Both the position numbers and the translations under genes were made by a program. From contig NC_009976.1 in assembly GCF_000018585.1 (NCBI RefSeq), forward strand, positions 1,235,982-1,299,981: 64,000 bases of DNA, written 5' to 3'. Under the pieces are notes generated by a model. The model had not been told where the DNA came from. It saw only the letters and a program-made list of their open reading frames with translations, and made no database searches. The first letter of the stretch is position 1. Each line of letters starts with the position of its first letter. Shown here in pieces: positions 1,544 through 45,404 of the stretch. This DNA comes from Prochlorococcus marinus str. MIT 9211 (GTDB lineage Bacteria > Cyanobacteriota > Cyanobacteriia > PCC-6307 > Cyanobiaceae).

Positions 1544-1804
1544 ATGCCAGATTCTCCTTCCGACTCAGAAAACAACTTTACGAAGAACAAGCTTTCATCT
1601 TTAGAACAAGTCAGCAAAGCGAGTCTCACAGAGGCAAAATGGATAGACAATAGCGGAGAAGCTGTAGAAAAAGTTTTCGGGTTCAATCAAAATGCAGAGC
1701 TAGTCAATGGAAGAGCTGCAATGTTTGGGTTCTTAATGCTTGTAATCACTGAAATAGTATTTGGAGGCCAAGCAACAACTCACAGTATTTTTGGTATCGG
1801 CTGA
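1544..1804 (+). CDS. hli: High-light-inducible protein (HLIP / small CAB-like protein)
   Basis: An 86-residue protein with the HLIP signature ExxNGRxAMxGF at residues 52-63 (E52, N55, R57), followed by one membrane helix (about 59-75). HLIPs are single-helix relatives of the plant LHC family. They sit in the thylakoid, bind chlorophyll and carotenoid, and protect or help assemble photosystems under excess light. The first 45 residues are hydrophilic and acidic, as in the longer HLIP types. In cyanobacteria, hli genes are controlled by the NblS/DspA kinase, whose gene is also in this window (26348-28408); that regulatory link is known for the family and only inferred here. Confidence 0.93.
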   Translation: MPDSPSDSENNFTKNKLSSLEQVSKASLTEAKWIDNSGEAVEKVFGFNQNAELVNGRAAMFGFLMLVITEIVFGGQATTHSIFGIG

Positions 1805-2480: not shown

Positions 2481-2657
2481 TTAATCTTCTAAATTGCAGG
2501 TCAAATCACACTCTATTAATTCAGTATTTTCAAGCCTTTCAAGAATTCTTGTCATATCAACAGCTGAAAGCTCTCCATCAACACTCCATTTTAAAGTTGT
2601 TTTCCTCTGAAGAGGTGCCTTGCCATTGTTAAAGCCTGACTGCCTTGGATTACTCAT
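2481..2657 (-). CDS. 58-aa acidic C-terminus protein, unknown
   Basis: The frame can be read from 2735, but the ATG at 2655-2657 (MSNPRQSG) has a strong AAGGAG 6 nt upstream, so I chose it. The protein has a basic middle (PLQRKTTLKWSVDG) and an acidic end with two cysteines (IECDLTCNLED). A helix is likely at SAVDMTRILERLENTE. It is small, soluble and unassigned. The structured RNA and the 21-nt palindrome at 2762-2782 lie upstream of it in the same intergenic region. Confidence 0.6.
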   Translation of the reverse strand: MSNPRQSGFNNGKAPLQRKTTLKWSVDGELSAVDMTRILERLENTELIECDLTCNLED

Positions 2658-43585: not shown

Positions 43586-43987
43586 TTAATTAAATAAATC
43601 TTGAGAAAGCTTCTTAACCCGTTGCTTATTAATCCCAAAATCATAAATCCCTATTCTAGAAGCCGATTTGAGTTGAATGATGTTTTCTGAAGACAATAGA
43701 AAAGCTTCAATATCGTCAGTAAATCTGAAAACAAAGCTTTTAACAGTCCAATGGTAATATTCTTTAGTGCTTTCTAAAAGTTTAGATCTTGGCAATAAAG
43801 ACATATTGCTTAATAGTTTATTAAAGCTTGCTTCAACATCTTTCGTCTTGATATTCGTTGAAAAGCAATTGCCAGTTTGAATACATTCTGGAATAGTTTC
43901 TACCTTACTTAATGCAAATGAAGGGTTTGCCTGCAATATGAATACAAAGGTGATGATTGCAAGCAGAAGATTTTTTTTAAAGCACAT
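43586..43987 (-). CDS. DUF1499-family secreted protein
   Basis: Residues 1-25 are a signal peptide (LLLAIITFVFILQANPSFA). The mature part has CIQTGNCFST, then an alpha/beta body ending FRFTDDIEAFLLSSEN, IIQLKSASRIGIYDFGINKQRVKKLSQDL. The SASRIGxxDFGxNxxR end is the hallmark of DUF1499, a family in bacteria and plant chloroplasts of unknown function. The two Cys are spaced for a disulphide. It converges on the 103-aa gene. Confidence 0.78.
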   Translation of the reverse strand: MCFKKNLLLAIITFVFILQANPSFALSKVETIPECIQTGNCFSTNIKTKDVEASFNKLLSNMSLLPRSKLLESTKEYYHWTVKSFVFRFTDDIEAFLLSSENIIQLKSASRIGIYDFGINKQRVKKLSQDLFN

Positions 43988-44608: not shown

Positions 44609-44761
44609 TTAGTCGGTTTGTGACTTCAGATGAACCTCTATGCACTTAGTAATGCACTCGCCTCCGTCATCACCAACTGCACAAGCTGTAATGCATTCAA
44701 AATATGAATCAATTGCGTCTGAATCCTCAACAATAGAAATGCTTTCTCTCTTACTAGCCAT
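44609..44761 (-). CDS. 50-aa microprotein with twin CX3C motif
   Basis: The frame runs from ATG 44759-44761 to TAA 44609-44611. Its four cysteines are C23, C27, C36 and C40, giving CX3C-X8-CX3C with near-identical half-sites (ECITAC and ECITKC). The flanking residues are acidic and there is no signal peptide. Such spacing occurs in metal-binding and in helix-hairpin disulphide proteins. It is convergent with the 53-aa gene. No family recognised, but the repeated half-site argues for real selection. Confidence 0.6.
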   Translation of the reverse strand: MASKRESISIVEDSDAIDSYFECITACAVGDDGGECITKCIEVHLKSQTD

Positions 44762-45056
44762 GAAGAAACTCAACTAAGGAATATATATTTAGCACAAACC
44801 AACCAAATCAAGGACAATTAGTTAAAAGATATAAAGTACCTAAGTAATAATTACTATAAGGAGACTCAAGGCCTTATTTGTTTTCAGTTCACAACCTTTT
44901 AAAACAAAGGCTAGTAGCTAGTTTGTAAACCTGTAAACAGCCCTGATAATTACAAAAAGTCTTTTACCAATGAAATCATTAGATCTTCAAAGTATTTAGA
45001 ATCATAGTTAGACTATCAACTAAAGACAAGTACATTTTCGCGATATATTGTGGTGA

Positions 45057-45404
45057 ATGGGATCAACCCACAAAATCTATTTAAGCTCCATGTCCTCATT
45101 AAGTCCTATTGATATTTTAGGGTTAGTAGCAGGCTCATTGACAACAGCTGCTTTCGTGCCTCAACTGTTAAAAGTATGGATATCAAAGTCAGCAAATGAT
45201 ATTTCCTACCTTATGTTTATTCTATTTATTATAGGAATTGTTTTATGGGAGATATATGGCTGGGAAATTCATTCGATGCCCGTTATTTTATTCAATATAA
45301 TCACCTTCATACTAGGTTTGGCAATCTTAATACTGAAGTTTGTCTTTGATAGTAGAAACAACCTTAAATCAAAAGAGAAAATTATAAATAATACTTCTAA
45401 TTAG
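45057..45404 (+). CDS. SemiSWEET-type sugar transporter (PQ-loop)
   Basis: A 115-residue protein (104 from ATG 45090, which may be the real start) with three membrane helices: LGLVAGSLTTAAFVPQLLKVW (including the PQ motif), ISYLMFILFIIGIVLWEIYGW, and MPVILFNIITFILGLAILIL. It is the three-helix bacterial half-unit of SWEET transporters, which dimerise to pass sugars down their gradient. The Asn residue in VILFNIITF is where SemiSWEETs bind substrate. The neighbours give no clue to the substrate. Confidence 0.85.
   Translation: MGSTHKIYLSSMSSLSPIDILGLVAGSLTTAAFVPQLLKVWISKSANDISYLMFILFIIGIVLWEIYGWEIHSMPVILFNIITFILGLAILILKFVFDSRNNLKSKEKIINNTSN

Follow-up and report, generated by a model that had tools for sequence, protein, structure and literature searches.

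A short twin-CX3C protein of Prochlorococcus marinus MIT 9211 belongs to a conserved family of Cyanobiaceae and cyanophages

The stretch of DNA analysed, hereafter the window, comprises 64,000 nucleotides of the Prochlorococcus marinus str. MIT 9211 genome (contig NC_009976.1, positions 1,235,982 to 1,299,981). It contains a short gene, Table 1, lying between a murD-like gene (recognised by eye) and a SemiSWEET gene, and these surroundings resemble those of the syntenic orthologs in loci L109 and L112. A gene for a DUF1499 protein is also found in the window. Translation of the minus strand from the ATG to the TAA gives MASKRESISIVEDSDAIDSYFECITACAVGDDGGECITKCIEVHLKSQTD, in which C23, C27, C36 and C40 are spaced as CX3C-X8-CX3C. 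The near-copies ECITAC and ECITKC to which the preliminary description drew attention are present in this translation. The ATG agrees with the starts of the orthologs in L109 and L112; an alternative upstream TTG at 44773 would give 54 amino acids. The protein is acidic (pI 4.25) and its highest 12-residue hydropathy mean is 1.12. A signal-like hydrophobic stretch ahead of the first Cys was seen in none of 114 relatives, as judged by hydropathy in the aligned domain part only, so the protein is probably cytosolic.

Table 1. Features of the window discussed in the text. Positions are those of the window.
Feature	Positions	Strand	Remarks
Twin-CX3C protein, 50 aa, predicted hairpin	44609..44761	(-)	ATG 44761; coding 44612-44761; TAA 44609-44611
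First half-site CITAC	44681..44695	(-)	C23 codon 44693-44695; C27 codon 44681-44683; Cys invariant in 18-member alignment
Second half-site CITKC	44642..44656	(-)	C36 codon 44654-44656; C40 codon 44642-44644; Cys invariant in 18-member alignment
SemiSWEET transporter	45057-45404	(+)	NF037968, E 2.4e-26
DUF1499 protein	43586-43987	(-)	E 2.2e-17
Solo KTTLKW-type protein	2481..2657	(-)	Partner profile; frame open from 2735, start 2657 chosen
High-light-inducible-looking gene	1544-1804	(+)	By eye

The window protein is 60% identical to each of its syntenic orthologs. Pairwise comparison of the three genes over 50 codons gave 6–9 differences at second codon positions and 23–30 at third positions. 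Since second positions change far less than third positions, purifying selection on the protein is indicated. In an alignment of 18 hand-picked members, all with four Cys, the residues D18, Y20, F21, E22, C23, C27, C36, C40 and L45 are invariant, and the family profile was built from this set. A six-frame search of 188 loci, some of them overlapping, yielded 177 hits that reduce to 125 distinct domain sequences, and 123 of these keep CX3C-Xn-CX3C with all four Cys. This fraction is favoured by the training of the profile on four-Cys members alone, though members with three Cys can be detected as well, as shown by two sequences in which C27 is replaced (by Y in L166 and by S in L075). Among the 123, the spacer is 8 in 88 sequences (X8), 6 in 30 (X6), 10 in three, and 9 and 7 once each. 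The window protein conforms to the pattern [YF]-F-x-C-x3-C-X6-10-C-x3-C on a short ORF by which the family is recognised.

At E 0.001 the profile matched 270 of the 271 Cyanobiaceae genomes that are at least 90% complete, with one to five matches in each and all 34 genera represented. The window protein as a single query found relatives in 191 of 201 genomes of this GTDB family at E 0.01 or better. The proposed check, on conservation of the four Cys across picocyanobacteria, came out positive, and a conserved protein family is supported. In a sample of 291 genomes from the whole phylum, 37 matched at E 0.01, 35 of them Cyanobiaceae. The other two matches (E 0.0047 and 0.0070) were partial, marginal and inside long frames and were taken as chance, thus no convincing relative outside Cyanobiaceae was found among the cellular genomes of this sample. 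A scan of public genomes gave 41 named loci, 40 from Prochlorococcus and one from Synechococcus. Searching Pfam with 26 distinct members gave no match of note, the best being to the unrelated Megourin (E 0.005), with the likewise unrelated DUF4656 (E 0.009) below its cut-off, and NCBIfam had no match for the window protein. The suggestion that this form belongs to no known cyanobacterial family thus holds for Pfam and NCBIfam models; taken as a statement of rarity it would be wrong, as the family is multi-copy, occurs in nearly every Cyanobiaceae genome searched and is carried by many cyanophages.

The genome of MIT 9211 itself, a single contig of 1,688,963 bases, contained only two family genes at E values up to 10, the second being at genome positions 559051-559197. 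Other genomes carry the X6 subtype, with the typical sequence WDAVETYFECITTCSLDDGECITRCVEQL. The gene immediately upstream of an X6 copy encodes an ABC-F ATPase (assigned by Pfam) in 12 of 40 loci fetched, which corresponds to 12 of the 17 source genomes, and in nine of these 12 loci the next gene is a convergent HtrA-like gene (by eye). In MIT 9211 only five bases separate the ABC-F gene from the HtrA-like gene (L224, 3225-3231), with no X6 copy between them; this genome has lost the ABC-F-adjacent family copy.

Many family genes are followed by a gene for a second small protein of the KTTLKW and/or GGSI type. This was counted for 116 distinct family genes from loci fetched otherwise than through the partner. 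In the 700 bases that follow the gene, 55 of the 116 have a partner encoded on the same strand, namely 53 of 79 X8 copies, one of 31 X6 copies and the one X9 copy; these 55 pairs are related genes and do not represent 55 independent events. None of the 116 had a partner on the opposite strand of the downstream stretch, and none had one upstream. The start of the partner is mostly within about 30 bases of the twin-CX3C stop, and in L040 the two overlap as ATGA. In L143 a GGSI-type segment and, after it, a twin-CX3C domain share one open frame of 151 codons. The KTTLKW segment is well conserved, and a further CX3C ends 13 of 14 aligned partners but is missing from several solo copies. The partner profile matched 159 of 201 genomes, and one genome (G092) had eight matches, the highest number in that search. 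No partner lies beside the twin-CX3C gene of the window, nor beside 26 of 79 X8 and 30 of 31 X6 copies. With so many family copies lacking an adjacent partner, the KTTLKW protein cannot be the sole client of the family. The window does contain a solo KTTLKW gene, Table 1, which is 42 kb from the twin-CX3C gene and so is tied to it by family only. A high-light-inducible-looking gene is close to this solo gene, and in three loci from larger genomes of the family (L179, L180 and L188) solo KTTLKW genes were seen by eye near a sigma-70-family-like gene. A search of viral contigs did not turn up the partner, and phages gave just three hits to it, at E 0.5-0.6. NCBIfam and PHROGs returned nothing for it, its profile matched nothing in the PDB below E 0.73, and its structure model (pLDDT 49.8) was too poor for use.

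Scanning with the plain sequence of the window protein found no relative in viral contigs, and phages gave a single chance-level hit to a Pseudomonas phage. This apparent absence is misleading since a profile scan and queries with phage-type copies did find viral relatives. The profile identified relatives in 26 IMG/VR contigs, starting from 172 pattern-matched stretches. All 26 keep the twin CX3C on inspection, a proportion to be read knowing that the search pattern demanded the first CX3C and that several of the contigs are near-identical. With a T4-type query and an E threshold of 0.01, 361 of the 50,697 records in the phage collection matched, under the names Synechococcus, Cyanophage, Prochlorococcus or Marine. 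As a yardstick, a query with gp23 of P-RSM4 matched 489 records at 1e-120, 470 of them with those names and many near-identical. Two further queries, of the L201 type and the psbA-phage type, found nothing in the phage collection, so these copies are known here from IMG/VR contigs only.

Nine phage regions were opened and all were Kyanoviridae. The gene comes after gp23 in P-RSM4, syn9 and S-RIM2 and is located elsewhere in the other six. Terminator-like hairpins are present on both sides of the copy in syn9, which is gp134; none were found at the copy in ACG-2014d, and no sigma-70-like promoter above chance was found near two phage genes. In the IMG/VR contigs L191, L196 and L200 the family gene is beside a phage DNA polymerase gene. 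Photosystem II D1 was recognised in L196 by profile, and L191 and L200 carry a D1-like frame by eye. In L204 the family gene follows a terminase gene. The copy in phage P-TIM68 (L220, 4001-4168) is without the third Cys. Together with the two host copies without C27, this indicates that the four Cys are not strictly needed.

Profile-profile alignment of host and phage sequences gave E values of 1.9e-14 (T4-like phage) and 5.7e-19. Single-sequence scores for four T4-like proteins were 25.5, 17.8, 15.6 and 14.4 bits, the weakest of which are barely above composition since the best of 5000 shuffles reached 13.6 bits. In a tree of 139 short sequences, eight T4-like copies grouped together (support 0.876) and four psbA-phage-type copies grouped with four X6 Prochlorococcus copies (support 0.741); the tree gives a hint only.

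The preliminary description took the symmetry of the half-sites as a sign of a designed metal- or disulphide-binding fold. The pattern C-x-[TS]-x-C occurs on the first side in 119 and on the second side in 113 of the 123 four-Cys sequences, and on both sides in 112. AlphaFold2, given an alignment of 28 sequences, predicted helices at 16-26 and 33-44 (mean pLDDT 73.1, pTM 0.48). A two-helix hairpin with C23 and C27 on the first helix and C36 and C40 on the second is supported by this model, whose confidence is middling and for which every fold match has a Z value below 5. The expectation of a compact paired fold is thus in keeping with the prediction; the family-wide symmetry fits a hairpin and does not speak of design. 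Foldseek gave no match below E 0.001, the best being 2.6. The top VIA-align matches were VBP-8 (Z 4.4, 3.0 A, 40 aligned) and Nigellin-1.1 (Z 3.4, 2.7 A, 35 aligned), next came a V-ATPase subunit (Z 3.0) and, in fourth place, Tim9 (Z 2.8, 6.4 A, 46 aligned), and Vanabin2, titled as vanadium-binding (Z 2.7), and the Jug r 2 leader (Z 2.5) were also matched; values this low can come from a common arrangement alone. VBP-8 and the Jug r 2 leader belong to the plant alpha-hairpinin class, and four of the best six matches are alpha-hairpinins or small Tim proteins.

The reading we prefer, tentatively and at somewhat short of an even chance, is that the protein is a thiol-disulphide hairpin of the cytosol that serves as a small redox-sensitive regulator or adaptor, of which phages bring their own copy. 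It would be a soluble protein of the picocyanobacterial cytosol with two antiparallel helices (about 16-26 and 33-44) and a short joining loop. Depending on the redox state of the cell, the four thiols would be either reduced, leaving the protein open, or oxidised to C23-C40 and C27-C36 disulphides that lock the hairpin, as the Cys arrangement, the phototrophic life of the hosts and the analogy with CP12 suggest. The conserved D-x-YFE face would then bind or release a partner which in many lineages may be the adjacent KTTLKW protein, a link suggested by gene order. The protein would then act in the style of CP12 as a redox-sensitive adaptor, without kinship to CP12, and the phage copy would override that of the host. 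A bolder version, which we think unlikely, is that the family is an undescribed, near-universal redox switch of picocyanobacteria that senses thiol oxidation and controls the KTTLKW protein and other clients. Duplication would have given each genome several paralogs, and cyanophages would have acquired the gene on more than one occasion, using their copy to reset the redox control of the host in the course of infection.

A metal site is a serious rival even if its probability is rather low. Here the four Cys, perhaps with a following His, would hold Zn(II), Cu(I) or an Fe-S centre in a metal-binding or delivery factor, and two pairs of Cys fixed in 123 of 125 sequences are explained by this no less well than by the redox switch. 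A His occurs within five residues past the last Cys in 78 of the 88 X8 sequences, and Vanabin2 is a weak fold match; however, such a His is found in seven of the 30 X6 sequences and missing from 23, and the copies in P-TIM68, L075 and L166 have only three Cys. Moreover, both of the top structural matches, VBP-8 and Nigellin-1.1, are plant peptides with disulphide bonds, as described for Nigellin in PMC11591084. The disulphides might instead stabilise a hairpin serving as a chaperone or assembly factor in the style of the small Tim proteins, given the twin CX3C, the two helices and the appearance of Tim9 in both the profile and the structure comparisons. We consider this improbable as neither Tim9 match is significant and unrelated chains score equally, the protein has 50 amino acids against a 69-residue chain, and its N-terminus is not signal-like.

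The abundance of phage copies, with 361 cyanophage records from one query plus the other phage types, could also reflect interference between phage and host, in which host copies regulate or act as decoys for phage factors and phage copies counter them. This is doubtful to much the same degree as the chaperone, as near-universal, multi-copy occurrence in hosts and retention of the ABC-F-adjacent position in 12 of 17 genomes looked at suggest a housekeeping role. Finally, the gene is short and no sigma-70-like promoter or terminator signal above chance was found near it, as might be the case for a spurious ORF with a chance motif; conservation and codon-position bias refute this and leave it practically no probability.

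Few photosynthetic cells are as abundant as Prochlorococcus and marine Synechococcus. Given that the family occurs in 270 of 271 genomes and in 361 phage records and has no Pfam model, it likely matters for growth or infection, and a short gene with four easily changed Cys makes its role directly testable. In the literature searched, largely the main text of open-access articles, the family, its near-universality, the partner and the host-phage link were unnamed, and the sole match to phrog_665 was phrog_6651. Twin-CX3C genes may be among the 113 new short ORFs reported in MED4 (PMC2518516).

Several known systems resemble the family. CP12 is a small cyanobacterial protein with two Cys pairs that cyanophages also carry, according to PMC3906501. 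In some family copies (L116 and L128) the hairpin opens with AWDAVE, which resembles the CP12 motif AWD_VEE, and WDA[VMI] is present in only 16 of 125 family sequences. Identity with CP12 was rejected since CP12 was absent from the Pfam hits of 26 members in scans to E 1 and E 10. Pfam holds a CP12 model, and the Cys spacing of CP12 is different. NblD, the protein also called NsiR6, was likewise rejected. PMC5126843 describes NsiR6 as a small cyanobacterial protein with homologs throughout the phylum and two conserved Cys pairs, the first being CPVC and thus CX2C, whereas the first pair is CX3C here and the searches placed the twin-CX3C family in Cyanobiaceae and viruses only. A lanthipeptide or other RiPP precursor was rejected too, with the neighbouring genes partly inspected, because conservation is highest in the Cys region, which is thus no variable core. 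Prochlorosin-like peptides are precursors of this type. The small Tim proteins Tim9 and Tim10 combine a twin CX3C with a double helix (PMC3097184) but are longer, a 69-residue chain being the one compared, and belong to the mitochondrial intermembrane space; a sequence relation to them was not significant, the best profile match having E 0.53 as the third of seven rows.

A close catalogued relative is phrog_665 of PHROGs v4, whose function is unannotated. Of six phage-type copies scanned, five matched it, with an E value of 0.025 for one and values from 1.3e-4 down to 3e-12 for the other four; for the sixth it was not among the matches. An L206-type phage copy gave the E value of 3e-12 and an L059-type Prochlorococcus copy matched at 2.9e-4, while the window protein alone reached only E 0.085, and neither the one X6 copy from a host nor the one psbA-phage-type copy in this comparison matched. 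The T4-like phage copies aligned all begin with MHN (9/9), a start absent from the aligned host copies. On our reading of these sequences, phrog_665 would be the T4-like cyanophage branch of the twin-CX3C family. The fold class is also already known, and it is the host family that is unnamed in the literature searched. Alpha-hairpinins are defined by C1X3C2-Xn-C3X3C4 on a helix-loop-helix, with the spacing CX3C-X4-20-CX3C, in PMC11591084. The window protein agrees in spacing, with a spacer of 8 (6-10 in its family), and agrees in helix-loop-helix by the predicted model only (pLDDT 73.1, pTM 0.48). Alpha-hairpinins have two disulphide bonds and are made in plants as secreted precursors bearing a signal peptide, whereas the twin-CX3C family is bacterial and phage-borne, acidic and, by hydropathy, without a signal-like N-terminus. 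The resemblance to alpha-hairpinins is thus one of motif and predicted fold only.
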